A DNA stretch of 53,173 bases from Chrysophaeum taylorii (Eukaryota > Sar > Pelagophyceae > Pelagomonadales > Pelagomonadaceae). Below are positions 4,241-45,154 of this stretch, piece by piece (position 1 is the first letter of the stretch; the number at the start of each line of letters is the position of its first letter). The DNA lies in NCBI GenBank assembly GCA_029834535.1, contig JAQMWT010000112.1:1-53173 (forward strand), read 5' to 3'. Made by a program: the position numbers and the translations under genes. The notes beneath the pieces were generated by a model, which saw only the letters and a list, made by a program, of their open reading frames with translations, was not told where the DNA came from and did not search any database.

Positions 4241-4606
4241 TGACCCTTACCCTGATCGCCGACTGCGGTTGCGATGGAGGACGGTGCCTCATGAATCCTG
4301 AGCCTTGCGAGGGCATCCGCCCTCCCGGCGTAGGTTGGCACCTATTCGCCTCCCGGGCGGGCCGGTTGGCAGCCGGAACGTTCGCATTGGGACGGGGTAT
4401 GGCCGGGGGGCGAAGACGGAAGGTCATCGACGAGTTGGTTCTCAGTCACATCGCGGTCTCCTCGTCGCATGGCGACAAGCTTGATGGTCACTCTCCGCCG
4501 ACCGGCCTTTCGGCGCTCCTCGTCTACAGGCCCGTGATTCCGGACTGGCTCCCGTCGGTCCGGCCTGGCTCCCATGCTCGGGAGAGGTCTGAAGTTAGTT
4601 AAGTTA
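4241..4606 (+). mobile_element. SINE with (TTAG)n tail
   Basis: A 366-bp insertion flanked by perfect 12-bp repeats GAAGGAAGAAAA (4229-4240 and 4607-4618). It starts TGACCCTTACCCTGATCG and ends in GAAGTTAGTTAAGTTA. The equivalent place in copy C (about 45535) is empty. Close copies lie inverted at 13430-13792 and 22911-23260. The last ~75 bp before the tail match the 3' ends of the LINE fragments at 31181 and 31709. I cannot identify pol III A and B boxes with confidence, so the origin of the head is open. Confidence 0.85.
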
Positions 4607-7210: not shown

Positions 7211-7315
7211 AAGAAAGAGAATAAAACGGGCGTGTGGTCGGAGGCCAATTCCACCGCGTCGCGCCACGCAAAGCCGAAAAAAAAATAAAAAAACAGCCAT
7301 AACGCTAACCCCCAC

Positions 7316-7609
7316 TGTGGCAGTAACGCCCATTTCCCCCACTTGCCTGCCTGCCACCTGACTTACCCTGATTGTTGCCCTGGTATTGACCTTGCATTTA
7401 TGGGGGGGGGTGTCGAGATGACACCTTCACCTGCGCTTCCACTGGACCCAATGTACCGGGCATTTGTATGGCTTTCTTGCTGTCTTCTTGATATTACCCT
7501 CTTTTGATTGTCCGATTTCGTGATGGCGTGAGGTATTACACTGACATCGGGCGTGTGGTGGTTTCACCCGCGGTTCGGGTTGGGAGGAAGGGTTGTTGAG
7601 GCCCCCGGT
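7316..7609 (+). repeat. gypsy LTR, 3'-truncated outer copy
   Basis: It begins TGTGGCAGTAACGCC like the 3' LTR at 16927 and matches it to GGCCCCCGGT. It then switches at 7604-7609 to inverted leader sequence. The bases CCCGGT are common to both partners at the switch, which suggests a microhomology junction. Confidence 0.85.
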
Positions 7610-7898
7610 GTAGTCCCTCGCCGTCAGGGAGGTGATCTGCCTCGCGCGAGCTAGTTAGGTCTTATAACAATGCCTTGCGATATGCAAAAGTATGCAAAAT
7701 GAGTCGTAGTGACTCCGCTCCCCGTTCGATCCGAATCACGTAAAATGAACCCCACGGCGGTACCCGTGATCCTCTGGATCTTCACCCACAAATGCGTCGG
7801 CTTCGCACTCACTCGACCGTTACGAACCGACTCGCCGCCGAAAAACAGGAGATCGATAGTCCGGGAGTTGGACTATCGATTCCCGTTTCTGAGACCAC

Positions 7899-8231
7899 TG
7901 TAGTGGTTTTCTCAGATACCCGCCCCTCCTGGCCGGACCGGGGGCCTCAACAACCCTTCCCCCCAACCCGAACCGCGGGTGAAACCACCACACGCCCGAT
8001 CTCCGTGTAATACCTCACGCCATCACGAATTCGGACAATCAAAAGAGGGTAATATCAAGAAGACAGCAAGAAAGCAATACAAATGCCCGGTACATTGGGT
8101 CCAGTGGAAGCGCAGGTGAAGGTGTCATCTCGACACCCCCCCCCCATAAATGCAAGGTCAATACCAGGGCAACAATCAGGGTAAGTCAGGTGGCAGGCAG
8201 GCAAGTGGGGGAAATGGGCGTTACTGCCACA
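7899..8231 (-). repeat. gypsy LTR, full copy in inverted orientation
   Basis: 333 bp with TGTGG start (minus strand at 8231) and CTACA end (7899), the same length as the 3' LTR. An inverted primer site (7880-7897) follows it, so it is the 5' LTR of a minus-oriented fragment. Confidence 0.9.
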
Positions 8232-8473
8232 GGGGGTGTCGAGATGACACCTTCACCTGCGCTTCCACTGGACCCAATGTACCGGGCATTTGTATTGCTT
8301 TCTTGCTGTCTTCTTGATATTACCCTCTTTTGATTGTCCGATTTCGTGATGGCGTGAGGTATTACGCTGAGATCGGGCGTGTGGTGGTTTCACCCGCGGT
8401 TCGGGTTGGGAGGAAGGGTTGTTGAGGCCCCCGGTCCGGCCAGGAGGGGCGGGTATCTGAGAAAACCACTACA
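8232..8473 (+). repeat. gypsy 5' LTR, 5'-truncated
   Basis: It lacks about the first 90 bp of the LTR and starts at the G-run, GGGGGTGTCGAG. The rest, to AACCACTACA, differs from the 3' LTR at only a few bases by eye, suggesting a fairly recent insertion. Confidence 0.9.
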
Positions 8474-8474
8474 G

Positions 8475-8492
8475 TGGTCTCAGAAACGGGAA
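8475..8492 (+). other. gypsy primer-binding site
   Basis: TGGTCTCAGAAACGGGAA begins one base after the LTR. Its reverse complement ends in CCA and has the form of a tRNA acceptor and T-arm; it extends to TCGATTCCC, a T-loop signature. Priming is therefore from a tRNA 3' end. I could not assign the tRNA species. Confidence 0.8.
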
Positions 8493-9092
8493 TCGATAGT
8501 CCAACTCCCGGACTATCGATCTCCTGTTTTTCGGCGGCGAGTCGGTTCGTAACGGTCGAGTGAGTGCGAAGCCGACGCATTTGTGGGTGAAGATCCAGAG
8601 GATCACGGGTACCGCCGCGGGGTTCATTTTACGTGATTCGGATCGAACGGGGAGCGGAGTCACTACGACTCATTTTGCATACTTTTGCATATCGTAAGGC
8701 ATTGTTATAAGACCTAACTAGCTCGCGCGAGGCAGACCACCTCCCTGACGGCGAGCGACTACACCGGGAAGGCCGTCCATACCCATTTTGCATACTTTTG
8801 CATATCGTCATATCGTACATTTTGCATACTTTTGCATATCGTCATATCGTAAGGCATTGTTATAAGACCTAACTAGCTCGCGCGAGGCAGACCACCTCCC
8901 TGACGGCGAGCGACTACACCGGGAAGGCCGTCCATAGTCTTCACGCGCAAGGCAAATGCTTCCGTAAGACCAGCGCACCGGTACAGCGCGCAGTAGTCAG
9001 ACGGCTGCCGGCAATTGTCGTCTGACGAAAAGAATACAACAAGTGAGTTGTGAACATCCGGAACAAACCTATTATCCGGGCAAATCGCGATC
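8493..9092 (+). other. gypsy leader with tandem duplication
   Basis: The leader between primer site and gag contains a duplicated block: CATTTTGCATACTTTTGCAT through GGGAAGGCCGTCCATA at 8671-8781, then again at about 8813-8938, with an extra CATTTTGCATACTTTTGCAT unit between them. No ORF of note. It may hold packaging or translation signals. Confidence 0.75.
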
Positions 9093-11153
9093 ATGGCAGA
9101 GAGGCCAATGACAGAACGATCGCAGTGGTTTCGGGACGCACAGGGGCGTCTGCAACGATTCAGTGCAGGGACTCCATTTGCGTCTATTGGAAGAACACCG
9201 TTCAGTACGCCCTTTCAACGACAGGAAGCCGAGGAAAGCGGCATCGGAAGAGAGGCAAGATCATATGATAGCCTCGACAGCCCCCCAAGCGTGGTCATCC
9301 TTCCGGATCCACGCGGCGGCGAAGGGGGAGCTACGGTTGCGTCAGACGCAACTTCAAGACAAGGTGAGCCGACGTTCCCGTACGCACGACCCTACGAACG
9401 TGCGATGAATACTACGGAGTCATCTCGAGCGGAACCCGAACCGTTTACGGCGATGCGTGGACCAGAGGAGAGTGCACCTCCTAGGCCACCATCTGTGAAT
9501 ACGAGAGCGACAGATTTTCGCGGGGATGTCGACCCCGAGGTTCTGCAGACCATCAACGAACGATTCGAGATGTACCAGTCGCAGATGGAGCAAATCATAC
9601 GTGAACTTGAGAACACCCGCCGCGACGCTCAACAACAACGCTCAGAAGTGGAGCGACAGCGGATCGACAACGATCGACTTCGGCGAATGATGGAGGAATC
9701 CATGCGGGCGCATGCTCGAGAGGCACGGCCAACCTCTCCGAATGCTACGCGTGTTACGCCCGACGACGATGATGACGCTGTATCGGCACTGACCGACGAT
9801 CAGCCACCGCGAAGTCGACCGGAGCCTACCCCGCACCATCATACTGACCCCGGTTCGGCGCGTCCTCGTGACGAAGAAGAAATACTTCATGTCAGGAAGG
9901 GAGCTGCTGGTATGACACGTATCACATTCTCGAATCTCACGGGGCAAATTACCAAGGACCGTGATGAGGTGGACGCGTGGTGGATGCAATTGCGGCGTAT
10001 GATGGAGGGAAAGATTGATAAACCCTCAATAGCGATGAACGTGATTGGAGGTGAGTATCAACTCGCCCCTATGGAAGCTTATCGCAAGTGGGAAGTTGAA
10101 CGACCGCAGATGTGGAAACAATACAAGGATGGGACCATCACAATGAAAGAGTTGCGCCAGCATGATGAGGACTGTCTGGATGCTATGCAAGAAGCGACGA
10201 AGCTTCCTTGTCCACCTCGGGCTACGGTTGAGGAGCTTGAACGTGAATGGTTCAATTTACGGCAGGGGAATTTATCGTTGAATAAGTATATCGCGCGATG
10301 GGTGCAGAAATTCGGCCAGTGGAGAGCAATGTCAGGTGGCGATACTGATCCGGCTGCGTTCCGTTCGCATTTTAACGCTGGTCTCAATTATGAGCGTTTG
10401 CGGACGAGCGTCGAACTTGCTCAGGCCTCACCGCATATGAAAGCATCTACTCTCACCCTCAACGATGTCATTCAATTGACCATCCAAATTTCCAAGATTC
10501 TGGAAGCCAACCCTACTGCCAACATCGAAGATGCGATTAAGAAGGAGAAAGGAAAGGAGCACGCACCACGAATGAGGAGAGAGCAGCAGCAGCAGAGGCA
10601 GCAGTTGCAGCCAGTCCAACGGGTTGGTTGTGTTACTGACTCGGGAGTTGGAAGCTGGCTACCACAGGGGATAGATAACCATACGCGTCAGGCAATTACG
10701 ACGTGCCTCAGTTGCGGCCGGCATGGTAATTTTCATCACGACAACGGTGTATGTCCTGTGCCGGACAATCCCTCGAGGAAGAGGCGTGCTGCTCAGACGT
10801 TGACGGCTGCGGGTTTTCCAGCAACGCCAGAGGGACAGGAGCAATACCGACGGACGCTTTTAGCTGCAGCAGGACAGGCTTCAGTGACTCAGCTGGCGCC
10901 GCGCGTTGTGCAACAGCCGCAGGTGGTCTACACAGCAGCACAGGTGCCAGGTGCAGGTCAACAGCAGCGTTTGTTTGGTTGCAGACTCTCAACAACAGGT
11001 AGTCCGAAGGCAGCCCGCAGTGCAGCGGACCGCTCAGACCTCGGTGCGCCTGGAGGATCTGACTACGGCTCTCAACACGATGAACTTGATTCGTCAGGCA
11101 CAGCAGACGGCTCCGCCGGGCAGAGGGCGACAGTCTCAGAGAGCGAACCCTAG
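9093..11153 (+). CDS. gypsy gag polyprotein
   Basis: A 686-aa ORF from the ATG that follows the leader. It has a charged coiled-coil-like segment (about residues 150-200, RRDAQQQRSEVERQRIDNDR), then a retrotransposon gag core (about 280-470, with EREWFNLRQGNLSLNKYIARW and FRSHFNAGLNYERL), then a zinc knuckle-like C-L-S-C-x7-H-x4-C near residue 540. The knuckle is longer than the usual CX2CX4HX4C. The C-terminus is Gln-rich. Near 10980 the coding appears to move to the +1 frame (protein QQQVVRRQPAVQRTAQ up to 11358), so the last ~55 residues of this ORF are probably out of frame. Its role is to form the retrotransposon particle and bind RNA. Confidence 0.8.
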   Translation: MAERPMTERSQWFRDAQGRLQRFSAGTPFASIGRTPFSTPFQRQEAEESGIGREARSYDSLDSPPSVVILPDPRGGEGGATVASDATSRQGEPTFPYARPYERAMNTTESSRAEPEPFTAMRGPEESAPPRPPSVNTRATDFRGDVDPEVLQTINERFEMYQSQMEQIIRELENTRRDAQQQRSEVERQRIDNDRLRRMMEESMRAHAREARPTSPNATRVTPDDDDDAVSALTDDQPPRSRPEPTPHHHTDPGSARPRDEEEILHVRKGAAGMTRITFSNLTGQITKDRDEVDAWWMQLRRMMEGKIDKPSIAMNVIGGEYQLAPMEAYRKWEVERPQMWKQYKDGTITMKELRQHDEDCLDAMQEATKLPCPPRATVEELEREWFNLRQGNLSLNKYIARWVQKFGQWRAMSGGDTDPAAFRSHFNAGLNYERLRTSVELAQASPHMKASTLTLNDVIQLTIQISKILEANPTANIEDAIKKEKGKEHAPRMRREQQQQRQQLQPVQRVGCVTDSGVGSWLPQGIDNHTRQAITTCLSCGRHGNFHHDNGVCPVPDNPSRKRRAAQTLTAAGFPATPEGQEQYRRTLLAAAGQASVTQLAPRVVQQPQVVYTAAQVPGAGQQQRLFGCRLSTTGSPKAARSAADRSDLGAPGGSDYGSQHDELDSSGTADGSAGQRATVSESEP

Positions 11154-12282
11154 CCAGCACAGTGATGGTGTCGCCGCTCGGTGCCTTGAAGTGCTTGGCG
11201 AAGATCAGGATGACACTAAGCGAGCGGACTACTGCACTGTGCAGTATTCTGAGCTCATGGAGGGAAACGTGTATGATGATGACGAGGTTGGGGGCCATGA
11301 TTATAGCTTCTCTGCGGAAGGCTATTCCCCTACCTCCTTCCTTTTTGGTCATCACTGAAGATGCATGGGTGGAGGAGCAGGAGCAAAGTACCGAAGTGAC
11401 TGGAGTTGCATCTAGAGTTCTTTCGGAAGACGAAGATAATCGTGACGAATTGGGGTATACGATTGTTCGTGTGGGACAAGATACCTTGGTTGCCATGGAT
11501 ATAGTGCCACCGAGGGACGACTGTGCCGAGCGTTATGCTGCTCACCCTTCCATCTCTTCGGATTTTGAGAATTTCTGCCCTCAGACTGCGTTGAATACTA
11601 CTCAGGATCAATACCATCGTGAAAATAAAGCCGTAAGGTACGATGGTGCGAGATCCGCCTCTTTGACGTATGTGCCTGTGGCTATCTCTTCGCAAGATGG
11701 TTCGAAATATTCCATCATCGCTGCCGGTTTGGATGGCATGGCTGATTCCCCCTACATCGATCACCGCTTGTATCGCAAACTTGATCGTGACGGCAAAATC
11801 ATCTATCGTCAGCCACTCCCTACGATTCGTATTCTAAATGGGTCAGGAGGTTCGGGAGCTGCTATTCGAGAATGGGCCATCCTCCGGATCTCCTTGGTGC
11901 CGACGACATCCATGCTGCTCATGTTCTTCGTTGGTCAAACGAATGGGCAGTTACTATTAGAAGCACGAGAATTACGACTCTTGGGTACGATTTTGGATTA
12001 TGCGACAGAGAGAGCTATTTTTCGGCGTTCTGAAGTGACCATTGGAGTTTTGAAGAATCGGACTTCCGCCTCGCCACAAGACCAGCATGGAATTGTGCTT
12101 TACAATGATGCATTCGATGCGACTCCGCAGGTAGTGCAGATGTTCCCGACAGCTAAGCTTGCTGTGCAATACGGAAACATCCAAACTTGGACGCCAGTTG
12201 GTAAACCGTGGAGTTATGACAGTCAGTCTATGGCGTTCTATTCGTATCAGAGCGAATCACCATCACATTCCTTCCGGTGATC
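11154..12282 (+). CDS. gypsy protease-like pol N-terminus (frameshifted)
   Basis: This part reads mostly in one frame (11345-12280). It holds an acidic linker, then a segment KYSIIAAGLDGMADSPYID followed about 75 residues later by LEARELRLLGTILD. The spacing resembles a retropepsin, with a catalytic D-T/S-G replaced by D-G-M-A and a late hydrophobic-G element. Position between gag and RT supports a protease role, but the motif is off-consensus. The frame changes at about 11350 (from the gag tail) and about 12270 (into the methyltransferase), and each join could be a single indel. Confidence 0.45.
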
Positions 12283-12284
12283 AG

Positions 12285-14066
12285 ACTGCTGGAAAAGCTG
12301 AAGACCAACTTGAATGCCCTGCAGACGAGGAAGATATCATCCCTCATTTCGCGTACGTGACGAGTACTCGATTTCTTCTTCCAAACCAACCGTACTTCTT
12401 GGAGATGGAGTGCGATGTGCCGCTGGAAAAGAGTCACGTATTCCGACCTTATCGGTCACTCCTCCAAGATCTCCGCCTTGTACCTGGTTCCTATTCATCG
12501 TATTGTGCTGATGAGCCCAACGAAGTTCATGTGGCTGTGGAGCACATTGGTGACGAACCCATTGGTATCGACCCCGAAGTCCCGGTGGTCGAAGGCGAGA
12601 TCATGCCGCATGAAGGATGTGTCAACATGCAGCTAGAAGCCACTGATGACGTGTGTCATGCCACTCTTACGGCTGCTGTTGACGACGACGAAGTCGAAGA
12701 GGATGTCTTGAGTGACAGACCTCCTCCTCAGCCACCTCCAGATGAAGAAGTGAAAAAGGCACCAGAAATGGAGATGGAGGCGACTGTTAAGGAGCTGCTA
12801 TCTAAGCACGCCTCCTTGGTTTGGATACCCATCACCTACACCTTTGTCGTCGTCTACTTTGCTGGCGCTGGAGGATCAACGTTGGGTATCCGGCGATGCA
12901 ATGAGCTATATGGCAGTTCATTTCGCATTGTCCTGGCTTTGGATGCTTGTCCTCAAGCCCGAGCCACCTTCGAACTCAATTTTCCGAAGATTCCCTATGT
13001 TTTGCATGAGTTGGGGAAATCTCATCGTCGTACATACGACTTGGTGTTGTCGTATTTACATTCAGATTTTCGGAAGCACTCTTATTTTCACGCCAGTCCG
13101 CCGTGTATATATGGATCGACTGCCAATTTGCACTACAGGGACGCACGCAAGGGCGCTACTATTACTTCTTGGGTCCTGCGTCATTCCCGCAACGCACCTT
13201 ATGTGATTGGACGATGGACACTTGAGCAGGAACCATCAGTGATCCCTTTTGTGCATCACCAATTTTATGTGCCGCGTATTGTTGATTTCTATAGTATCAC
13301 GCCAGCGCTGCTGTGCTCGCGCACGCGCCTACTTACTTGCAATGTTCGCTTGGAACTGCCGTTATTATCGCGTGTACCACCGAATTTACGGGACCGTTTT
13401 GGCCCAGCATTGGGATTTACAGGTGGTCAACTAACTAACTAACTTCAGACCTCTCCCGAGCATGGGAGCCAGGCCGGACCGACAGGAGCCAGTCCGGAAT
13501 CACGGGCCTGTAGACGAGGAGCGCCGAAAGGTCGGTCGGCGGAGAGTGACCATCAAGCTTGTCGCCATGCGACGAGGAGACCGCGATGTGACTGACAACC
13601 AACTCGTCGATAACCTTCCGTCTTCGCCCCCCGGCCATACCCCGTCCCACTGCGAACGTTCCGGCTGCCAACCGGCCCCGCCCGGGAGGCGACTAGGTGC
13701 CAACCTACGCCGGGAGGGCGGATGCCCTCGCAAGGCTCAGGATTCATGAGGCACCGTCCTCCATCGCAACCGTAGTCGGCGATCAGGGTAAGGGTCACCC
13801 GCTCATTATAGTGAACAGTTTCTCATCTACGCGCCCGGCTATCGGCCCTGCCTTTACGGTGACGCGCAATAAGCTCCGCTTAGGACCTCATTTCTCGAAC
13901 ACCCGTCCACTCACGTTGCAGATGCACCAGGAAATTATGACCGTTCCTGCTACGTGGCAATGGGGTGCGACAGTTTCCGAGACAGTAGCTATGAAGATGC
14001 TTGGCAGTATGGTGCCACCCGCGACTATGACGCGGATTGCGCTAGCAGTGCACAATTCGTTTGAAC
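12285..14066 (+). pseudogene. Cytosine-5 DNA methyltransferase domain in pol, SINE-interrupted
   Basis: Clear C5-methyltransferase motifs appear in order. Motif I is FAGAGGSTLGI (from 12858). Next come VLALDACPQARATFELNFP and the motif IV loop HASPPC, with the catalytic Cys codon at 13104-13106. A motif VI-like WTLEQEPSV follows, then a motif VIII-like LLCSRTRLL. Beyond the SINE are FTVTRNKLRL, the Rx-LT region and LGSMVPPATM (motif X, usually GNAVPP). The domain has little room for a target-recognition region, so it is compact. It would transfer methyl from AdoMet to cytosine C5. The 12285-12850 part is an acidic linker. Removing the SINE (13430-13792) and one GGTCA copy rejoins the two halves in frame. 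ENV is degenerate to EQE; activity is uncertain. Confidence 0.88.
13430..13792 (-). mobile_element. SINE inserted in the methyltransferase
   Basis: 363 bp in inverted orientation: its tail reads ACTAACTAAC on plus, and its head is at the right. It is flanked by GGTCA (13425-13429 and 13793-13797), although TGACC also starts the family consensus, so the true duplication may be shorter. It belongs to the same family as 4241-4606 and 22911-23260. Confidence 0.85.
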
Positions 14067-14766
14067 CTTCACTTCGAAATTTGGGTAAGTTGCGGAATAT
14101 TGCGACGACTACGCTAGCCCAACCTGATCACCATATTCTACGGTTTTCACCTTTTGCTGTAGAGTCGCGCATTCCAACGCTCGACCCTGCCACTCGAAGT
14201 GTATCATGGATTGCGCCCGATGAACTCTATTCTTCTGCGAGTCCTGCACCATCCGCTGCTGCCACCACCACCCCGCCACCGCCTTCAGTTACATCGCCTG
14301 GGACGGCTTCATCTTTTGCAGGGGGCACCGTCGCCACTGCTGTTATGCAGAGCAACCAAGTTGATAACCAGCCCTCCGCAACTGCTGAAGAAGAAGGCAC
14401 CGCGAAAGAGCGACCAGCGTATTTCAATACGTACGACGTTCCGTGGGCGGACACGCCTCACGACGAACATGGTCAACCTTCACCGGTGATGCCTCCTCAT
14501 TTAGCGGATCAGGAGAGCATGCAGGTCATCCCTCCGACCGTCGCGCAGGTCGAAGAGGTGATGACTGAGTTGGGTATTACAGAGCATCCTGCCTTAGATG
14601 ATGACGAGAAGCTGATGATGAAGCATTTAATCTCGTATTCGTGGGCATTTTTCGATGATGTGATGAGACCTGTTGATTCACCTGAAGTGACGCTCCGGTT
14701 CAAAGAAGAGAACCCGACTCCGTCAAACTCTCGCCATATCAGTTATCGAAAGAAAAGATTGAATGT
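14067..14766 (+). CDS. gypsy pol linker between methyltransferase and RT
   Basis: This is the continuation of the ORF at 13697-14845 after the methyltransferase. It has a Pro/Ala/Thr-rich low-complexity stretch (14230-14350), then a conserved-looking segment (VEEVMTELGITEHPALDDDEKLMMKHLISYSWAFFDD) that resembles the region before gypsy RT. A frameshift near 14750 moves reading into the RT frame. Confidence 0.6.
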
Positions 14767-16209
14767 TTGCGGATGCAGATTGAAGCATGGACCCGAGACG
14801 AAGTTATTCGTCCCGCGAATTCTCCATGGGGTTTCCCTATTTTGATGTTGCCTAAGAAAGGTGCTGAGCCTGGCACTTCCAATGCTTACAGAGCAGCTGT
14901 CGACCTACGGCGCCTCAATGCATTGCTCAAGGATGATAGCTGGCCGAGTGTGAGCATGGCTGACGCGTTGATGTTTCTCATTGACAAGTTTTGTCGTTCC
15001 AGTTTGGATATTCGTTGGGGCTATCACAATTTACGATTGTCGCTGGATGCACAAGATGTGGTCACCTTCACTAGTCCTCTGGGAGCGTACAGCTACATGC
15101 GTCTACCTTTGGGAGTCAAACCAGCCGGAAGTTTGTTTTGCAAGCAGTTGAACACTGACTTGTCGCAATGGCTATATCGTGATCTCGTGGCATATATCGA
15201 CGATATTCTCGCCGGTCACGCAGATACAAAGAATCACTTGCAGTGCCTTGTGCAAGTTATTCCCCATCTCGCCTTGAAGGGGTACAGCGCCAAGATCAAG
15301 AAGATTCATTTTATGCAAGAAGTCATTGAGTTTTTGGGTCATTTATCTACCCCGAACGGACTTCTTCCATCACCAAGATCTTTAGAAGCCATCAGACACA
15401 TGCCAATTCCTGGCACTTTGTCGGATGCTGACCCTAAGAAGCAAGTGCGATCTTTCCTTGGAATGGGGAGCTTTTGCCGGCGTTATGTAAGGAATTTTGC
15501 GAAAGTTGCAGAGCCATTAAGACAACTGACGTTGCCGGACGTGAAATTCAAGTGGACGAAAGAGTGTCAGGAAGCTTGGGATGCCATCATCGAGGCTATT
15601 GTCACGTCGAAGGGCGTCTACCATCCTGATTACTCGTTGCCTTTTTACATTCGAACTGATGCTTCCGCGCATGGGTTGGGTGCTTACCTATTTCAAAAAG
15701 TACCAGTCGTTGACGACGATGGAAGAGAAAGAATCGAAGAGAGAGTTATCGAGTACTGGAGTCGAACCGTGCCTAAGTCGATGAGGAAGTATGATCCTCG
15801 GCGCTTGGAACTCCTCGCAGTACTCTCTGCTCTCGAAAATTTCCGATTTTATATCGAAGGTCATCAGACGAAGTTAGAGACGGATCATCGTAACTTAACG
15901 TTTCTGCGGGATTCGAATCATACGTCTGGACAGTTAGCACGATGGGCTATGCGGCTTGCTGCGTTCGACCGGGAGCTCGGATACAAACCTGGAAGCTCCC
16001 CTGGCATGCGTATTCCGGATTGTCTGTCGCGCAACCCTATCGACAAATTGATCGAGAAAGATGAAGACGGGGAACCGATCAATGATTTTTTTTTTGATTT
16101 TCCAAGAAATCCCCACCGATGTCCCTGGCACAGCTTGCTTCACCTTCTCTTCGGTGACGATGCCCATGCTGACGGACAGCGGACCCACCGCAGCTATGGT
16201 AGCAGTTAG
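14767..16209 (+). CDS. gypsy reverse transcriptase and RNase H
   Basis: A 480-aa ORF with the full gypsy RT-RNase H core. RT shows WGFPILMLPKKG, AVDLRRLNALL, SSLDIRWGYHNL, MRLPLGVKPAGSLF and the catalytic Y-I-D-D at 15193-15204 within LVAYIDDILAGH, then FLGHLSTPNG and VRSFLGMGSFCRRYVRNFA. RNase H shows TDASAHGLGAYL (first Asp), RRLELLAVLSALENFRFYI (Glu), TDHRNL (Asp) and PDCLSRNP. It copies element RNA into cDNA and degrades the template. The start is in another frame upstream, so the first codon here is not a true start. The end of the ORF (after 16080, next to a T8 run) has no integrase features. Confidence 0.93.
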   Translation: MRMQIEAWTRDEVIRPANSPWGFPILMLPKKGAEPGTSNAYRAAVDLRRLNALLKDDSWPSVSMADALMFLIDKFCRSSLDIRWGYHNLRLSLDAQDVVTFTSPLGAYSYMRLPLGVKPAGSLFCKQLNTDLSQWLYRDLVAYIDDILAGHADTKNHLQCLVQVIPHLALKGYSAKIKKIHFMQEVIEFLGHLSTPNGLLPSPRSLEAIRHMPIPGTLSDADPKKQVRSFLGMGSFCRRYVRNFAKVAEPLRQLTLPDVKFKWTKECQEAWDAIIEAIVTSKGVYHPDYSLPFYIRTDASAHGLGAYLFQKVPVVDDDGRERIEERVIEYWSRTVPKSMRKYDPRRLELLAVLSALENFRFYIEGHQTKLETDHRNLTFLRDSNHTSGQLARWAMRLAAFDRELGYKPGSSPGMRIPDCLSRNPIDKLIEKDEDGEPINDFFFDFPRNPHRCPWHSLLHLLFGDDAHADGQRTHRSYGSS

Positions 16210-16926
16210 TACACGACAGAACGTACAACCGCCTCAATTCTCGTACGAGTCTGAGCCAGTTGACTCCGTCGAACGTCTCCCTTTTGCGGATCAAGCGGAG
16301 GATGAGATCACTCTCGATGAGATAGCGAAAGAGCAAGCTGACGGATTACTACTCGGACGTCGAGCGGATTTTTGAGCGTCTCAAGACAAAAAGCGAGCCC
16401 AGGAGACCACCCACAGTCTCCGAAAAGAGGCAGAAAGAAGGCCGGAGAGACCAACCATAGTCTCTGAGACCAACCATAGTCTCTGGCGAGGCAAAAGGCT
16501 TGTGCCGTGTAAGTCCGTCGCACCGGTCAACCGCGCGAGTCGAACAGTAGCCGGCAAATTTTGCTGCTCGACGCGAAGTTTTGGTGTTCGAGATAGCCGT
16601 TGATATCCGAGAGAAACCGCACCATGGAAACTAGAGGAGACTGACGTTTGTTCTGCGACCGCTTCTGCTGAAGAACGACGCTTAAGACCAGAAGACAAAG
16701 ATCCTGACGGAGGTAGCTTCACATGCCTATGACCCAACATGGAGGGCTGTGAACCCTGTGTGACTGATTTTCGCCCGGATGAAATCGATGTCCTCGTCAC
16801 TAACTTCGGTCTCCACAGCAACAAAGTTCCTGCTGATGTAGCTGAACGAGCTTATCGTACCATTCGTGAGCATGACCTTCGTCACCCTTGAAGTCGAGGA
16901 CGACTTCATCTCACGTAGGGGGCTCC
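16210..16926 (+). other. gypsy 3' region, no integrase
   Basis: About 700 bp between RNase H and the 3' LTR. It holds a short ORF tail to 16375, a duplicated GAGACCAACCATAGTCTCTG near 16460-16482, a stretch partly similar to the leader (CGCACCGGT...CAACCGCGCG near 16520 compared with 8977), and a short ORF from 16739. I find neither the HHCC zinc finger nor the DDE core of an integrase. A G-rich tract next to the LTR (about 16915) may be the polypurine tract. Confidence 0.55.
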
Positions 16927-17259
16927 TGTGGCAGTAACGCCCATTTCCCCCACTTGCCTGCCTGCCACCTGACTTACCCTGATTGTTGCCCTGGTATTGA
17001 CCTTGCATTTATGGGGGGGGGGTGTCGAGATGACACCTTCACCTGCGCTCCCACTGGACCCAATGTACCGGGCATTTGTATGGCTTTCTTGCTGTCTTCT
17101 TGATATTACCCTCTTTTGATTGTCCGATTTCGTGATGGCGTGAGGTATTACACTGAGATCGGGCGTGTGGTGGTTTCACCCGCGGTTCGGGTTGGGAGGA
17201 AGGGTTGTTGAGGCCCCCGGTCCGACCAGGAGGGGCGGGTATCTGAGAAAACCACTACA
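16927..17259 (+). repeat. gypsy 3' LTR
   Basis: 333 bp from TGTGGCAGTAACGCC to ACCACTACA. It matches the inverted full LTR (7899-8231) and the solo LTR (39371-39701). It is followed by CCAC, matching 7312-7315. Confidence 0.92.
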
Positions 17260-17921: not shown

Positions 17922-18423
17922 CCCTGAGAAACCATTTGTTAAAACGTGCACGTAACCTATGGGTTTTGAACTGTTACCGCGCCAGTTCAGCCTCGCCACG
18001 TAAACACACTTGTAAATACAACGCCATTACCATTGGGCTGTATATGATACTTTTTTTGCGCACGTGATCGTGTAACCTTGTGTGCACCTGTTCATAGCAT
18101 CGTGTTGTCATGTCAATGTTGATGTGTGTGTAATTGGCTAGCCTGTACTCGTGCACACATGTTATGGAATATTTTGGGTACGTCCACTCGTACATTCCAT
18201 GGCAATGCACTTAACAAGCTCCTTGAGAGCACCAAAACTAACCAGCTGCCTGAGTGACTACGCTTAGCGACACTACTCTGGACTCACAGCTTGCACAGTC
18301 GTCAAATAGACATATTTCCATCGAAAACGATGAGTGTACATAGACACCGATAGACAGACCCCCTTAGAATGTCTAGACAGTGTCAACTGCGTGACTGAAC
18401 CCACAGGTTCCCCGTCAACTGCT

Positions 18424-21055
18424 ATGGCAGAACACGCAGCACGAGCCGCACCCAAGGCGATCACAGGTGCGGATATATTGAAGCTCGAAGCTCCTGTAGT
18501 TGAGTTTCTTTACGATGGAAATCGATTTCAGCTTCAGACTCGCAGCGTATCCTTGCAAATCAAGCATATTAAGCAATTGTTACGGTCCAGTCATGCCGAT
18601 GCCTTCCTCGAGTACGACTCGTACGAAGCATATACTCGGTCATGCAAGGACTACGAGATCCTCCGGAATCAAATTCTCGATCGCGTTTTCCTGGAATGGA
18701 AGACCGATAGGGCTGCTGATCTCCGTTTAGCTGTTGATGAATTGCCCCCTGAGTATCAGGAATGGCATTTCACAAAGAAGCTTTCCCCAACTTACTTGAT
18801 GCAGAAGTAGCTCAGCTAGCTACTGTCTGTTACGACTATGAAGTCAAGGCATTACGCCCTGAAATCAATGTTTCGTTTCTTAGAAGAGGAACGAATCTTA
18901 AATCGCGCGCACCCGAAGGCATTAGCTTTCGACACCCGTGTTCGTGCCCCTGTTACTATGTTTTCGTTAACTGCTGCGGACTGGCACACTTATCAGAACA
19001 CGTATGCTACATTCTTGCATACTTACTTCAATCTTGAAAGTGTTGGAAAACCAGCACTTGCGGCCTGGCCCGCCATCAATGAAGTATATAACAAAAGTTA
19101 TTTGCCCAACAAGGCTCGAGCCATTATGCTCATCGCCTTTAGTCACTACGAGTCTGTTGCGACTACTGATGTGTCCTACTTGAAACAGCAATCTAACTCT
19201 GTTGTTTATAATCCTAACTGGTATGTCCATGTATTTATCGAAGCTGTCCTAGCATTTAGGCAAATCTCATACCAACTTAACCAGGAAGAGACTGACCTTC
19301 AATTCGACTTTGGCACTCTTTGTATAAAAATCTATGAAGAGATACATCGGCATTATGCCGATAATACCAGCAACAATCGTTACGATCGTGGTTGGGTAGA
19401 TTGATGTTATATGTATGAAACCCGATCTTCATCTCGGCCTGTGCCAGAAGCTGAACGATTGTGTCACCCTACCAACCCTAGCTACATTTTAGAATACGCA
19501 TGAGACCTATACAATGTAGTATCAAATGGGTCGAACAAAAGACGCTTAGAACGCCCTGTTTCTTGGCAACCCTATGTCGAAGGTTTATCATCTCAACCAA
19601 AGCCAAAGTTACTACTTGTAAAAATTCTGGACCCAGCAGACAAAAAGTCTGACTCAAACTGCTAACACACTCGCCTTCATCACTTCGTCCCAACCTGGTA
19701 CATCTTCCTCGTTTAATGCTAGACGCTTGCGTAACTCTAACGATGCTCGCCAGCCTTTCTCTCGCAGCGACCTATCCTACTATCGTTCTGGTGATTCTTA
19801 TGTCACCAAGAAAACTGCTGGACAGTCCCATGACCGTCCAATTTACCTTCGCACTTTCGACAGGTCCTCTCGATCTAACATGAAATTATTAGACCGAACG
19901 AAGCACACCTTAAACACCCTGCGAGAACAGTGTAGTGAACTTACGAAGCATGTGACAGATAATGATACCACGGCTCAGCTACAACAGATTATCAACAAGT
20001 TATTTGAGACTCTATTACAATCAGCTGACATTCTGTCAACGACATCTACTGAGGACGACAGTAGTTTACTTCGTCTAAACGAACAGCTCATGTTTGCAGA
20101 AGACATCATTTATGATGTAGACGTTCATCTATCCTCGACCGAAAAGTCGTTAAACTACGTGGAGCCACAACACCATACGGCTGTTACTGCTCCCACCCCA
20201 AAAGCAACTCCTCCTGCTACAAACACACAGGGTAATCCTTCCAATACCGTGCCTAACCTCTTTACCGCTTCCGCCATCTCGGCTTTACCACCAGCATTAT
20301 TGTCCTCGCTATCTTCACAGGTCCAATCTGCCCTCAACATACCATCACAAGCCGAAACCAAACGGGATCATACTTCGCTATCGTCATTTGATGAAAAGCA
20401 CGGCATGGCTGATGAGGCTGACGAACCATCACCACCTGTTCAACCGATTATTATTCCAACGAATCTGTTATTGCTGGAGAACTTCTTCACAGCCAGCCTC
20501 TCCACTACTTGCCCACATTCGGAAAACGCCTTCCTCACCAGCTACATGAAGGTAAACAGTGTCCCTCCACATTGCTCTTTTCTATATTATGACTCTTGTG
20601 CTACCATCTCATTGATGTCCGCTTATGATTTTGCAATACCCAATCATATAATTCCACTGGACTCCAAATACGCGCCGATTGTTATTCAGACGGCTACAGG
20701 ACAACAACGTGCATCACACATAATGTTGACACGCAACATTGCTGTTCCCCTACAAGATCATCCACAAGTTGGCTATGTTAAGATCGACTTCGCTTTATGT
20801 CTTCAGCCAGTGCATGACCGACATCTCGCTATCCTGAGCATGCTCGAGTGGAACCAGACGAACCTGACCACTGTGTTCAATGATCGAGCTGAGCCAAAGC
20901 TCAGCGCTGTCACGAGCCGCATAGACAAAGATGTACGTATACCCATACACTATGTAGCAGCTAATTTACCTGCTCTCCCTTGTCTCACTTACAACATCGC
21001 TCGCGACAAGCAACTCGAACTTCGTTCCCTCGCATTTCCTCAAGCGATACCATGA
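18424..21055 (+). pseudogene. copia-1 copy B gag-protease
   Basis: Start at ATG 18424 (MAEHAARAAPKAITGAD). It aligns along its length with the minus-strand copy at 81-2895. The second half (19727-21055) carries the protease-like YYDSCATISLMS and a long aspartyl-protease-like fold region with VGYVKIDFALCL. Damage includes frame slips near 18775 and 18880, a TGG to TGA change at 19402-19404 and a TTA to TGA change near 19500. Copy A has its own, different frame slip at about 2530, so the intact ancestral frame can be inferred to span both. The D-S-C-A variant is present in both copies. Confidence 0.75.
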
Positions 21056-23260: not shown

Positions 23261-26200
23261 GCTGCAGTGACGCAAACCTATGTATCCAATTTCATGATCG
23301 CCAACGCTTCCACCACGTGCAGCACAGATGCCTGTCTTTGCAATGCTTTTACGATGCCCATTTCCAGCAACTGCTTGACCGAAATGTCAGTTAAACCATA
23401 TACTTCGTCCTACGAATACTCGTTACTCGTGATGATGAGGATGCACTCAAGTGACCCTGCTGCGCACCAGGATGACGACGCACCGCCTTCCTGCCTTAGA
23501 CACCGAACTCAAGTTCGATGTTCGGTGCAAACGGCATATTCCTGCTCATCTCACCTCGTAAGTCCTCGCACACGGATCCACTGAATATCTCAATGCCAAA
23601 GAACGTGCCAACGTTTACCGGTGCATCACTGCCCCGACAACGTCGCTGCCAAGGCCCCCAACGCGCTTGTTCGCCCTGTCTCTGCTTTGACATACCATAT
23701 CGCGACTTATGCACCGACTGCATCGCACACAACAAGCGCCACCCGCACGCTAATGCGACCAAGCCTTCTTGAGCAAACTCACAAGGCCGGCGAAGTCTGG
23801 CGTGCGACGGCGGCTATGTGACCATCCCATCCGAATGGGAGGCTTCACACATATCATCGTCTTCAAGGAACTCATTTCGAAATTTCTCTTGGTGTACTTT
23901 ACACGCACCACCAACGCCACGGAGTTCACTCAAGCTCTGGATTTTGTGTATGACTTGTCGTACACAACTCAACGTGCACATGCGCACCTCTACTCCGATG
24001 ATCTTTGCCTACTTTAGCCAGCACATTACCCCGTACCGCGTCGATAAGGGCATTCAACTCATCGCCTTCCCGCCGTACATGCACCACTTTAACTTTGAAG
24101 TTGAGTCTGCCATCGGTTTCATCGCCCCGCCTCCTCAACTCGCCTTCGTTCTCCTTAATGCTCACTATCGTGGCGCCAAGATCGTGGAACCCGCCATCAT
24201 GTTCCCGTGGGCGGTGATACACACCGTTCAAAGCTACAACCTTCTCCTGAACGCCACGCTCGAGCGCATTCATCATGCTATCCTGAGTCCGCCAGCTACT
24301 ATACAACCAACTCAACACTCCCCAACATGATATGCTCAAGAGTTTTGGCGCTGAATGTTACCTTCTATTGGAGCCCCATGAACACCAGTGGGAACCGTGC
24401 CGCCGCAAATATTATATCTGTTGCGCCAACGCGCAAACCCGCTTGTCCCTCGCGTCGACCATCTCGCTGACGTCGTCTCAACCCTGAAAACGGACAAATT
24501 CGTGTTTCGTCCGCTGCATCCTTCACATGTTTCAGCATCCTACCCTGATCCTGAACTTGCTCCTCCGCCTCACGCTCCTCCCGCGCCTTTCTCGCTCACA
24601 CCCCACACCGCTATCCAAGACCATGTCATTCAGAGGGGGACACGGACTCATCCTCAGAGGGGGCACTCCCACCTCCTTCAGCTCCTTCTTCGTCCCCTGC
24701 TCCTGCCTCTTCTCCCTCTTCTAACACTCCTGCCGACGATTCTGGCTCTATGTCACCGCCGCCCTTGCTTCCTTCTTACAGACACCTTTGCACAAGATGA
24801 CCTCATTCTTGTCCCAGGTTCCAAACAGCCCAACACCCGCAAGGCCACTTCTATGAAAACTATCCGAGCCCGGTCAAGCGTCTACTATTGGTGCTTACAA
24901 AGCCGCTGGTGGCAACTCGCCGATTTCCGCTGGGATCTTCGCCACCACTTTCTTACGTTCAAGTCTCCGCCCTCTCCGCCCTTCATCTCAGTGGTGGTAT
25001 CCTGGTCTGCTATCTGCTCAGAGGGGGACATGCGCGTTGTCGCCTGTCTTCTCCCGTTGCGCGCACTTACTATTTGCCCGCTACCCGCACGTCGATGGTT
25101 ACTTCGCCCACGCCAAGTGCGCATCCAGCATCCCAGCTGCAACCTTAATAACTGTTGATGGTTCACCTGCGTGCCCATTCCTCAGCCCTTTTGCGTTCAC
25201 TGAACACGCTGCTGCCTTCGGCACTTCTTCCTTCAATATGCACTTACGTACCTGGCGCCGACCAGCTTTATTGATCACAACTCCTCCGAGTTTGGCGCTA
25301 CTTGCATCTCTGGCCGACTTGGAGGAATACCTTCTGGTCTCTACAGAGTTTATCACCCAGGTCTTACACACCGACCCTACTATCCATATTCAACTGGAAT
25401 CTGCTCCTACTCCTGCCGACGCTGTTTCCGCTTATCCCGAAGTTGCGCACACTGCCTCGACCGCAACGTCGCTAAACTATAATTCACCAGCCATTGGTCC
25501 TGACGAATATAAGGTCCAAGAAGCGGACGTTTCATTGACGAATATAAACTTAAGTGCCTCCACGGTTTGTCGCCTGAAAACAGGCACGCCTACCTCGCCA
25601 TCGCCAAGGAACTCCACGACATTATCCGCTTTGGCTGCTTCAAACTTCCCTACCCGACGGTGTCTCTGTCCTATTGACAGCAAGATGGTGCTGAAGATTA
25701 AAACAGACTCTGCAGGCAATACAGCAGCACAAGGCTCGCCTCGTACTACGTGGCTTCCGCATCTTGGCGCCGATCTTTGGTACCTTCAGCCCCATGGCCA
25801 CCATGACCGCAATCCGGGTACTACGCTATTGCAGCATACAAGCAATTGCCTGTCTACCATGCAGACGTCCCGAACGCCTTCGTTCAGTCTGACATCGATG
25901 CCAATGCGCATGTTCAGTTACCAGACGGCATCAAGCTTATCGACCCGATGACGCTAAGTACAAGGGCCGACGTCTACCGAAATGCTGAAGTCACTTTATG
26001 ACTTCGGCAATCACCATCTCTTTGGAACAAAGAGATAGACGGCTTCTTCCGTTGCCTACAAACGCCTGCATTCACTCTTGCTCTATATGCTCGAGTATCC
26101 GCACATGCTAAGTTCGTCGTATGCGTCTGTCTGTAGACGACATTGTTATTGTGTCCAATGACGACCCTCTTCGTACTGAGTCGCGGATGCCCTCCACAAA

Positions 26201-41687: not shown

Positions 41688-44600
41688 TTGCTCTCCCAAG
41701 CCGCAGCCCGCCCTCGCCCTCGTCCCCAATACCCACCTCGATCCAATCCCCTCTACCCACCTCGATCCAATCCCCAATACCCACCTCGACCCCATCCACC
41801 ATTCTACCAAAACTATCTTTCCGCCCCCATCCCACTCTTGCCCCCATCTCAACCCTCTCCGCCGCTTCTTGCGTTGCCACCCTCCACCACACCCTCTGTC
41901 CCACCTTCCACCGCCATATCCCCTCCTGGCCCATCTCTTTCTGCACCCACCTATCCGTCTTTCAAATTCCTTCTTCTTTCCATCTCCGCCTCCATTCACC
42001 AAGTCCTTTCCTCCACCAATGCCCTTACCGCTCTGCTCACCGCTCGTGAGCGCGACTACCTGCACAGCAACAACCTTCGCCTCGTCGTCTACGATACCGG
42101 GGCCAACGTCAATCTCTTCAATTCCCCTGCTGGTTTCACTGACCTTGACAATACTCAACAGCACAACATCACTTCTGCTATCGGCACTGGCTCTGTTTCT
42201 GGTTCTGGCACTGCTCACTTAACGTTCCCTTCAATTGGTCCTCTTGACAATCGTGGTCTTCCTTCTCCTGCACCCGCTCTTTCCGCCCCTCATGGCATCG
42301 ATGTCGCGTTCCCGCATACCCTCATATCTCCTGGCCTTGGTGACAAACGGATTCTTTCGGATCATGCCCTTGCGCAAGTTGGTTACGATTGTCATACGAT
42401 TCAGGATGTTGGCCTTACTCACCCGCAACGAATTTTACGTCACCGTCAAACGCATCACGTTATTCCCCTGCTTCGTCGCTGTGGTCTTCTTTTGATCGTC
42501 TGTTGGATCGGCAATACGACCGCTGCGCCCTACGCGGACTTCGTTTCACCTTTTGTGGCATTTTCTTCTTGCCCTCGCGTACATGACCCTTGTGCGTTTC
42601 CCGTTGTGTCTCAACGCACTCAACTTACCTTCGACCTTCGGCATGCTCGTCTTGGTCACTATAGTCCCTCTTATATCCGACGTTTGTCTTCTCTCGCTGT
42701 TGGCGCACCGCTGTTCCCCAGCTCCGCGTCTCTTTCTTTTTGTCCTGCTTGTGCTCTAGGTAAAATGCATGCTGCGCGTGTTGGCCAACGTAAAGCACAT
42801 GCCTCCACTTCCACCTCGCTTCCTGCCACCGAGCCTTTGTCCCGCCCACGTGCCTTTGCGCCCTATCTTATTATCCACGCAGATCTCATGTTTACAGGCG
42901 TTCCTTTTTTCATTTACCACGACCGTGCCATCCTTACGTTTGTCGATGATCATACGCGCCGCCGCACACGTTACTTTGCCCCACGACACGATGCACTTAC
43001 GAACGCTCGTCAACTCGAACTTTTCTGTCTACCGTGGTTCGCCCATTTGGATATCGCATCGCCCTCATCTACACCGATCGTGACCGCTCTCTTATGGGCC
43101 AATTCGAAACCTTCTGTCTGGACAACAACATCGCCCTCAAACGGGCTCCTGCTGCTCAGTCCAAAACTTCACAGGCGCACGCTTTTTCTGGTGTTGTGGA
43201 GCGCTCTCATCGCGCAACTGCGGATATTGCTCGCACTCTTTGGTGCATGCGCACCGTCCACCTGATTTTTGGCGTTGGGCCATGGAAACGGCTGACTTCA
43301 TCTCCGAGCGCATGCCAAACCCCTCTAACCCTGGTTACATGACGCCATATGAAATGCTACATGAAACTCTCCCCCGTGTCGATTTTCTTCGTGTTTGGGG
43401 CTGTCCTGCTGCAATTCTTACTGGCGATAAATGGCCTACCAAAGCTATAACAGGTATCTTCATTGGGTATCCCTCTGCCGGACCTGGTTATCGCATATTG
43501 CTTCGACGCTCCACTTGTCCGGTCATCCATTCATCTATTGACGCTCTTTTTGACGAAAATTTTGCCATGCGTAAGTCTCTGTCCTCCCAACCCCTTCCTC
43601 CTCCTCTTGAGGATTCTCGTTTCCCTGACTTATTTTATTATGACCCTCGTTTGTCTTCCGCTGTTGCTCCCTTGTCTCCTGTTTTTCATGCTCAGGAGCC
43701 GGCCTTATCGGGACTGATCACCCCAGAAACAATACCACAACCGTCAACGGACAATACGAAAAGTGCACCATTACGTCGAGCCAAAAGGGGCCGACCGCGC
43801 AAAGTCGACCAAAGCGCATTACCAACCAACACCAACAAACCATCGAACTTTCATTCTAGCGTTCGTCCACAACCCAACGTCAATTCTGTCTGTCCTCAAC
43901 GTAATGTCGATTCTGTTTCCTCCTGTCATACTGTCGATTCTGTTTCCTCCTGTCACTCTCTGTATGTCTCTTATTCTAGCTTTCGTTTGTTAGTTCACTA
44001 TGTCTTCCTTCCCCTTTGTCTAGCTCACACCCTTGTTGATCCCCATGCTGTCCATGTTCATTACTCTGCTTCTGAAGAAACCTCTCAGTATTCTTACATT
44101 GACGACGGCGCTATCACTTCCACACACTTACGCGAAGCTTTGGCTCAGACAAATCCTGAGCGTCCTGGCTGGTTGCAAGCCATCGCCAAAGAATATCATT
44201 CCCTCGGTCAGCTTGGTTGCTGGGATGTTGTTCGCGTTCCTTCGACTTTTTCTGGCAACATCTGTACCCTCAAGTGGATCCTCCGCAAGAAGTATGACTC
44301 TGGCCGCTTCAAATCGTACAAGGCTCGCCTCGTTGTCCGCGGTTACACCCAGGTTCACGGCATTGATTATCACGACACCTACTCGCCGGTTGCTAACATC
44401 GTCACCATGCGTTTCTTTCTAACTTTTGTTGCTGTTCATGACTGGGATTTGCACAAGTTGGACGTCAGCTCCGCTTTTATCCAAGCTCTCATTGACGAAG
44501 ACATCTATGTCTGGCCACCCGAAGGCTATGCTCCTCGCCAACCCACCGATGGTTCCAAAATCGTTTACAAGCGCCGTCGCTCTTAGTATGGTTGCAAACA

Positions 44601-45154
44601 AGCTTGTCGTAATTGGTGGCTTTATTTGGAACGCTTCCTTGTCAATGATTGTGGCTTCGTCCGCGGATCTGGTGACACTTGCAGTTACAAGCTCGTACTT
44701 AATTCTACCGTTGTCCTACGTCTCGTTCTTGTCGTTGATGATCTTCTCGTGGCGCACCCTCGTCATTGCCTTGGCCATTACCAAGCCTTCTTCCTCCGTT
44801 TCCGAACCTTCACTGACGTCAACGAGCTTGATCTGACCACTTACGTTTGTCTTCGCATTACGCGTGATCGCCCTCGACGCACGCTCACTCTTGACCAATC
44901 CCATGCCATCCGTGAAATCCTTACCGAACATCGCTTCATCAACAGTAAACCCGAACTGACTCCCGCTCCCAAAGGTCTTCATCTTTCTGCGGCTGATTGT
45001 CCTGCTCCTGGCTCTCCATATCACGTCTTCGTGGCGCGCATCCCTTTTCGTCGTATTGTTGGCTGTGTTTTATTTATCTCCATCATGACTCGCCCTGATA
45101 TCACTTGGTCCGTCAAACAGTGTGCACGTTTTTCACACAATCATGGTAAACCCC
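41688..45154 (+). pseudogene. copia-2 pol: protease, integrase, RT (truncated)
   Basis: A Pro-rich linker precedes the protease active site VVYDTGANVNLF (about 42089). The pre-integrase zinc region reads HARLGHYSPSYI...CPACALGK, and the integrase core follows (IIHADLM, TFVDDHTRRR, HAFSGVVERSHR). RT shows LKWILRKKYDSG, YKARLVVRGYTQVHGIDY, YSPVANIVTMR, LDVSSAFIQA and the catalytic VVDD in LVLVVDDLLVAHP, ending at RRIVGCVLFISIMTRPDITW. Damage: frame slips near 43020 and 43230, and a TAG at 44584-44586 in the conserved S-L-Y-G-x-K-Q region, replacing Leu. RNase H is missing because copy C inserted at 45155. Confidence 0.88.

Follow-up and report, generated by a model that had tools for sequence, protein, structure and literature searches.

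Is a DNA methyltransferase (MTase) a regular part of a long terminal repeat (LTR) retrotransposon, or a stray sequence in one copy of it? This question is raised by a damaged Ty3/gypsy element at positions 8232-17259 of the window, by which we mean the whole stretch of 53,173 nucleotides analysed here, contig C112 of a 70.8-Mb genome of 697 contigs. An earlier note on this DNA had placed a cytosine-5 (C5) MTase inside the polyprotein of the element, at 12285..14066. The comparisons described below indicate that Pol of this Ty3/gypsy family has a C5 MTase as a built-in domain, and that the family represents a real, old and selected MTase capture.

The methyltransferase domain in the gypsy family

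Two frames of the window matched the Pfam family PF00145, frame 12159-13439 (E 6.9e-4, profile positions 7-76, 19.6 bits) and frame 13697-14842 (E 1.7e-3, profile positions 258-321, 18.3 bits). The two halves stand in the correct order of the profile with RVT_1 and RNase H behind them, which bears out the claim of a C5 MTase within a Ty3/gypsy polyprotein, and each half alone lies under the family cut-off of 22 bits. Uninterrupted copies from three subfamilies exceeded this cut-off (38.8 bits in locus L062, 38.4 in L061 and 27.2 in L075, with E about 1e-9 for L062 and L061), and a lack of significant DNA_methylase hits, which the earlier note had named as a refutation, does not apply. The motifs FAGAGG, SPPC, VI, VIII, FTVTRN and GSMVPP were found to follow one another at 12858-14020 in the order that had been claimed; the numbers I, IV, VI, VIII and X are presumptive.

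Alignment of four gypsy copies with P0001, a protein relative described below, showed that P104, C106, E146, Q147, R178 and R180 are invariant. The catalytic Cys, the Glu of motif VI and both Arg of motif VIII are invariant among three gypsy copies, P0001, a phage enzyme and the protein P0002, and the catalytic Cys, the Glu and the Arg-x-Arg are also kept in the fourth gypsy copy; the catalytic residues are retained down to 37% domain identity. A fold model of window 12801-13430 reached a mean predicted local distance difference test (pLDDT) score of only 60.4, and its input alignment held Dcm enzymes, hence it is not independent evidence. Among the 50 Foldseek rows shown for this low-pLDDT model, 48 were C5 MTase entries scoring close together, with human DNMT2 at the top, and the VIA list mixed C5 MTases with other methyltransferases within about one Z unit below its top row. 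DNMT3 chains occurred among the rows of these fold searches (Foldseek, VIA).

The domain is not private to the window copy, and further gypsy copies with it, which the earlier note had proposed to look for, are numerous. With the N-terminal MTase part of the window as query, at least 152 matches were found genome-wide (150 of 768 candidates scored), and dozens of them covered almost the entire query at 93-98% identity; the longest open frame was 1,815 aa in this group and 2,129 aa over all rows. The divergent relative L075 as query gave at least 128 matches (128 of 1,017 candidates scored). The 278 MTase rows listed from both queries merge to at least 266 genomic places, which fall into several subfamilies with domain identities of 37-84%. 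Within loci L031-L062, the 306-aa domain appeared as one collinear match in 27 of 32, and 303 aa of it in L061; L038 and L062 denote a single genomic place, and the other loci are the window itself, the frameshifted L042 and L057, and L041 with a shorter match.

We then compared the positions of MTase and reverse transcriptase (RT) matches. The RT search gave at least 143 matches genome-wide (142 of 1,077 candidates scored), one short fragment of which was left out of the linkage count. In 80 of the 99 RT rows at 80-100% identity, a listed MTase lay no more than 5 kb upstream in the same orientation, at a median distance of 1,096 bp (over 78 of the 80); the same was true of 21 of the 43 rows at 61-64% identity. 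Among the MTase matches listed, none lay within 5 kb downstream of RT in the 139 rows tested. L082, the sole locus read among the RT loci without a listed MTase, does carry the domain, with 48% identity to L075 and 38% to L062.

In L061, Gag, the protease-like region, MTase and RT are joined in a single open frame of 2,129 aa. L062 has a 1,802-aa frame from Gag through MTase to the start of RT, with the remainder in broken frames, and both loci are broken further down pol. After the MTase, L062 showed RVT_1 (5.5e-13), RNase H (6.5e-20), Integrase_H2C2 (2.8e-17), rve (7.8e-8; 32.9 bits, just above the cut-off of 32.6) and Integrase_p58_C; the order is therefore Gag, protease-like region, MTase, RT, RNase H and integrase. 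The assignment to Ty3/gypsy is based on this downstream integrase in L062, on gypsy-type RT and RNase H in the window, and on the flanking LTRs of the window copy. In all other copies read, the MTase likewise lies between the protease-like region and RT. The placement given in the earlier note held in this respect, and its setting inside the LTR boundaries held in part: the right LTR is 335 bp, and the left LTR is partial and rearranged. Of the span 12285..14066 given there, 12285-12788 is a linker; the domain itself occupies 12789-13430 and 13793-14074. Whether the MTase or an RT stretch of 54-58 aa is compared, four copies fall into the groups {window/L062, L061} and {L075, L082}, which would fit a single ancient capture, the domain then being passed on together with the element.

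The ratio of nonsynonymous to synonymous substitution rates (dN/dS) of the MTase was 0.189 among 25 copies, compared with 1.63 and 1.38 in the shifted frames; these copies were chosen by protein similarity, which lowers dN, and dS between subfamilies was 1.5, near saturation. Between L062 and L061, dN/dS was 0.065 for the MTase and 0.069 for RT. The flanks yielded no usable ratio: indels interrupt their frames, and of 300 pairs just 15 to 106 qualified. Between L062 and L061, gag was saturated. Judged by these codon comparisons, the results show that purifying selection acts on the MTase with a strength similar to that on RT, and a sequence kept by selection suggests that the enzyme is useful to the retrotransposon.

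Enzyme type and a second methyltransferase in a Ty1/copia family

The host genome has its own DNMT2 (L001 on C634, matching 1g55 at E 3.9e-39, in an uninterrupted 360-aa frame) and DNMT5 (L002 on C621, matching 7r76 at E 3e-143, in an uninterrupted 2,086-aa frame). In comparisons with single sequences, the gypsy MTase profile gave a full-length match of 97.2% to a phage Dcm, that phage sequence itself having been found by searching with the domain, compared with 15.6% for host DNMT2 and 0.1% for host DNMT5. Against a small set of prokaryotic and phage Dcm sequences, hhalign gave 98.8% (E 1e-16, columns 24-301 of 308), and phrog_116 of PHROGs matched the gypsy MTase at E 8.6e-12 to 4.5e-8. These profile comparisons suggest that the gypsy MTase is of the prokaryotic and phage Dcm type. 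Because the cut-off of NCBIfam TIGR00675 (dcm) was missed (22.9, 22.5 and 18.6 bits vs 100.65), we call it Dcm-like and do not file it under that family. The sole match of the profile among all PDB chains was 8yf3 (E 0.036, weak), and no DNMT3 chain was listed; 8yf3 is a cytosine C5-carboxymethyltransferase, a match too weak for any inference. Compared with prokaryotic and phage Dcm (phrog_116, TIGR00675, PDB 3g7u and 8yf3), the gypsy enzyme differs in its place within Gag-Pol and in a motif VI that reads EQ rather than EN.

Two protein searches and a genome-contig search with the gypsy domain found no relatives, and a viral-contig search found two phage Dcm loci. The only significant protein relative, P0001, came from a profile search (E 4.7e-35, 30% identity over 88%), in which two further proteins at E 0.81 and 0.98 were not significant. 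P0001 is a predicted protein of 332 aa listed from contigs of JGI and of MMETSP, a marine microbial eukaryote transcriptome project. It shares W..EQ, RxR, FTVT and VHNS with the gypsy MTase, but begins after motif I and has SPSC in place of SPPC; no relatives of P0001 were found in viral contigs. As a side observation, this transcript protein from another eukaryote has the unusual W..EQ form of motif VI, and it may be a trace of the same element in a further lineage.

A six-frame genome-wide search with PF00145, in which 123 of 474 candidates were scored and introns were ignored, gave at least 57 matches: one DNMT2, one DNMT5 and 55 of a copia type. No DNMT1-like or DNMT3-like gene surfaced among the matches listed, and the gypsy domain was missed by this search too. 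We had considered these 57 matches as copies of the window domain and rejected this, since 28 were read as copia type and 27 coincide, by eye, with rows of the copia search. In L081 (C96:60600-69400), a 547-aa gag open reading frame (ORF) is followed by a 1,939-aa pol ORF with PF00145 (2.3e-8), a weak rve (0.0015, below the cut-off) and an RT domain of the Ty1/copia type, RVT_2 (1.3e-39), with the MTase preceding both integrase and RVT_2; loci L003-L030 have the same MTase type. At least 150 matches of the copia-type MTase were found genome-wide (150 of 366 candidates scored), and L081 is the one copy read along the whole element. The 126-aa core of this MTase had a dN/dS of 0.113 over 25 copies, likewise chosen by similarity, vs 1.86 and 2.06 in shifted frames. 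The Dcm profile was matched by it at 86.7% (150 columns), whereas no match to the gypsy MTase was obtained (0.1%). The simplest reading is that the gypsy and copia MTases would be two independent captures. It is conceivable, though doubtful, that two unrelated LTR superfamilies, each with a different captured Dcm-like enzyme, supply the de novo methylation arm and that the host has retained nothing but DNMT5, for maintenance; if true, retrotransposons would write the host methylome. In the window itself, the copia MTase had no match by tblastn, and copia-type RT remnants with 29-34% identity to the L081 RT lie at 25546-26052, 44173-44688 and 49377-48472.

Possible role of the enzyme and competing explanations

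The best overall explanation, which we regard as probable, is an old capture of a Dcm-like C5 MTase in Gag-Pol that has since been selected and methylates cDNA or insertion-site DNA. The MTase would be made as part of Gag-Pol and packaged with the RNA, and the predicted enzyme would act in or near the particle, methylating cytosines in newly made cDNA or in the DNA next to fresh insertions; action there is suggested because the catalytic residues are selected and the place in Gag-Pol is fixed. Host DNMT5 could then maintain CG marks through replication. With these marks the element would look like host DNA and curb the damage it does, and so persist at high copy number. Methylation of its own cDNA or of host DNA, as proposed in the earlier note, is plausible given the conserved catalytic residues and the purifying selection, while the CpG test gave no clear support. 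Precedents exist in Symbiodinium DIRS and long interspersed nuclear element (LINE) families and in a Klebsormidium Gypsy element of the Dnmt3 class, all with C5 MTases, and the SymbioDIRS DNMTs carried out de novo CG methylation in yeast (PMC5890265; here and below, papers are cited from excerpts of their text).

Several results weigh against this explanation. A clear footprint of lasting CpG methylation was not found by observed/expected (o/e) ratios, C>T singletons or pairwise C/T differences: CpG o/e of the element was 1.05, with no absolute depletion; C>T singletons occurred at 12 of 98 CpG sites vs 25 of 282 elsewhere; and pairwise C/T rates in the MTase domain of L032-L060 were 0.024 at CpG, 0.014 at CpA, 0.012 at CpC and 0.034 at CpT, so that CpG was not the top context. 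Motif VI has EQ, not EN, motif VIII is without its Q, and 8 of the 25 copies have one in-frame stop in the MTase domain. Among the matches listed, 19 of the 99 close and 22 of the 43 distant RT rows had no MTase. The similarity-based choice of copies and the near-saturated dS count here as well. The Dcm assignment is made from profiles rather than from a tree covering every eukaryotic DNMT class, and searches with the domain itself had supplied the phage sequences used for it. In addition, the KnitGypsy DNMT was inactive in yeast, a result termed inconclusive by its authors (PMC5890265).

Ten host-gene loci of higher GC had CpG o/e values of 1.20-1.46, above that of the element, and TpG/CpA o/e was 1.09 in the element vs 0.71-1.02 in these loci; this gap would fit mild decay or merely the GC difference. 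As a separate observation, the pairwise C/T differences were most frequent before T, and the singletons lack this pattern. Because Symbiodinium too shows CG depletion only in its LINE family (PMC5890265), we treat the result as a missing footprint and not as a disproof.

If the domain were kept for a role other than methylation, such as nucleic acid or S-adenosylmethionine binding or as a structural part of Gag-Pol, the altered motifs VI and VIII and the lack of a clear CpG footprint would be accounted for; a purely structural part, however, would not require the catalytic Cys, the Glu of motif VI and the two Arg all to be invariant, as they are, and we consider such a role unlikely. A well-known C5 MTase, DNMT2, acts on tRNA. 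An RNA substrate, either element RNA or the tRNA primer, would agree with human DNMT2 as the top Foldseek row of the window model, though the C5 MTase rows lie close together, and is improbable in view of the full-length match to phage Dcm at 97.2% against 15.6% for host DNMT2. The tRNA activity of DNMT2 is also described in PMC12344493. That the window holds a private insertion, a chance match or an assembly artefact was suggested by the low Pfam scores of its two pieces; with at least 266 genomic places, family-wide conservation and a dN/dS far under that of the shifted frames, a private insertion or chance match was rejected, and we give this possibility practically no weight.

Capture of a host Dnmt3-class gene by gypsy, as in Klebsormidium, is very improbable: FAGAGG and SPPC are motifs of the DNMT1/2/5/Dcm type and are not known from the Dnmt3 type, the PDB profile search listed 8yf3 and no DNMT3, and the Dcm profile match is full length. 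In favour of it, DNMT3 chains do occur among others in the fold searches, and the Klebsormidium case concerns the same element class, also with the enzyme inside the Pol ORF (PMC5890265). Modification of cDNA might also act as a restriction-like shield from a host nuclease or DNA-based defence instead of a silencing mark; the Dcm-type profile agrees with this, and the lack of a clear CpG footprint fits a transient or non-CG mark, but the active precedents methylate CG (PMC5890265), and we rate a shield as rather unlikely.

Host genome, known systems and layout of the window element

We found 84 matches to light-harvesting proteins in the genome, some being exons that belong to a single gene, and the best PDB matches of one of the 84 were solved fucoxanthin-chlorophyll proteins (E 7.7e-80). 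No phycobiliproteins were found in the genome search, in an assembly from which plastid contigs may be missing. Our best inference is that the host is a photosynthetic stramenopile, probably an ochrophyte, of the fucoxanthin-type algae. A dinozoan host (Perkinsus and the like) was considered and rejected, the spliced-leader pattern having 0 matches. A universal pattern for small-subunit rDNA likewise gave 0 matches. The tubulin family gave 8 matches, 6 of which were read and named by eye as single-exon tubulins and one FtsZ-like protein.

Capture of MTases by retroelements had been called known in principle in the earlier note, rightly, and the earlier detailed cases are from dinoflagellates and one charophyte (PMC5890265). 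KnitGypsy-Dnmt3 of Klebsormidium nitens resembles the window family as an LTR Gypsy element in several copies, with a C5 MTase in the Pol ORF, conserved key residues and Ka/Ks < 0.2 (0.19 among the copies here); it differs in its charophyte host, in its Dnmt3 class as against a Dcm-like profile, and in a repeat structure described as DIRS-like, whereas the window family has ordinary LTRs (PMC5890265). SymbioDIRS-Dnmt3 and SymbioLINE-Dnmt are likewise C5 MTases carried by retroelements, with copy numbers in the hundreds, the latter an orphan DNMT type, as the window MTase may be, but they belong to DIRS and LINE elements of a dinoflagellate; Symbiodinium Copia is given there as without any DNMT, whereas the copia family here has one (PMC5890265). 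Eukaryotic orphan DNMTs are described as lineage-restricted, like the window MTase, and outside the ancestral classes, some in LINEs or viral insertions; they are thought prone to lateral transfer, and 5-methylcytosine may be re-acquired via foreign DNMTs (PMC12344493). With reference to PMC5890265, the same excerpt gives 'LTR Copia and DIRS' elements as carriers of DNMT3 members, and no orphan DNMT of a gypsy element is named in it (PMC12344493).

An opinion paper mentions, without detail, DAM-/DCM-encoding Ty3/Gypsy and DIRS elements in Stramenopiles among others and proposes antiviral roles (PMC6338049), and the lineage as such may therefore not be new. DNMT5a is reported in diatoms, bolidophytes, pelagophytes and dictyochophytes (PMC9998398); DNMT2, DNMT3 and DNMT5 in diatoms and DNMT5 in Aureococcus, in an excerpt that mentions no retroelement DNMT (PMC3145265). 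A DNA transposon of Ectocarpus carries a different, ParB-linked N4/N6 MTase (PMC12477816). Among the papers listed from open-licence PMC text on retroelement DNMTs in algae or stramenopiles, we found no report of the window gypsy-MTase family. To judge from this literature, the principle is known, and the Dcm-like enzyme type and the double capture appear new. The present case would extend the known range to a fucoxanthin-type alga and to a Dcm-like enzyme, with two LTR superfamilies involved in a single small genome and hundreds of copies under apparent purifying selection. With host DNMT5 present, the system lends itself to the question of a possible de novo methylation written by retrotransposons and maintained by the host.

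The features of the window element are collected in Table 1, in which the bounds of the MTase were set by tblastn with a relative as query.

Table 1. Features of the Ty3/gypsy element in the window
Feature	Position	Strand	Remarks
Partial 5' LTR (right-hand 242 bp)	8232-8473	+	runs into 5' untranslated region (UTR); 98.3% identity to 17018-17259
gag frame, 686-aa ORF	9093-11153	+	94% identity over 601 aa to L062 gag
Protease-like region	11162-12280	+	ORF; labelled by position and by eye
Linker between protease-like region and MTase	12285-12788	+	outside tblastn bounds of the domain
C5 MTase, N-terminal part (motifs I, IV, VI, VIII)	12789-13430	+	PF00145; 97% identity to relative
Motif I FAGAGG	12858-12875	+	counted by hand on sequence
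Motif IV SPPC	13095-13106	+	counted by hand on sequence
Motif VI W..EQ	13215-13229	+	counted by hand on sequence
Motif VIII RTR	13320-13328	+	counted by hand on sequence
Insertion like a short interspersed nuclear element (SINE), splitting the MTase	13430-13792		5-bp duplication GGTCA; junctions compared with relative
C5 MTase, C-terminal part (motifs IX-like, X)	13793-14074	+	PF00145 E 1.7e-3; 97% identity to relative
FTVTRN	13853-13870	+	counted by hand on sequence
Motif X GSMVPP	14003-14020	+	counted by hand on sequence
RT and RNase H	14767-16209	+	RVT_1 1e-13, RT_RNaseH 3.9e-26, RT_RNaseH_2 6.7e-24
Remnant downstream of RNase H, up to 3' LTR	16210-16924	+	without the integrase that L062 has
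3' LTR, 335 bp	16925-17259	+	right part also at 5' end of L062

The window copy is dead, with its methylase interrupted and its integrase missing. A tblastn search with the L062 integrase core found no integrase in the window, and the copy therefore cannot be autonomous. Its gag matched Retrotrans_gag weakly (E 0.039, below the cut-off) and contains a zinc-knuckle-like CLSCGRHG..H..GVC, named by eye. Retropepsins carry D[ST]G. The protease-like frame has GLDGMADSPYI in place of this motif, and a Pfam search of the window frames gave no protease match for it; DGMAD (window 11700-12000) is common to the protease-like regions of the window, L061 and L075.

The SINE-like repeat has terminal CTAA repeats, with an inverted copy at 4241-4601 and parts at 23035, 31182 and 31706; ARAGORN found no tRNA in the window. 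L062 shows the same LTR end and 5' UTR as window 8232-8473. On the 5' side of the window element there are three LTR pieces, forward at 7308-7609, inverted with UTR at 7899-8233 and forward partial at 8232-8473, and the pieces in 7308-8768 form a large palindrome, possibly by self-integration or nested insertion. Two long inverted copies of another repeat, at 235-2989 and 18330-21039 and 91-97% alike piecewise, bracket the gypsy element.

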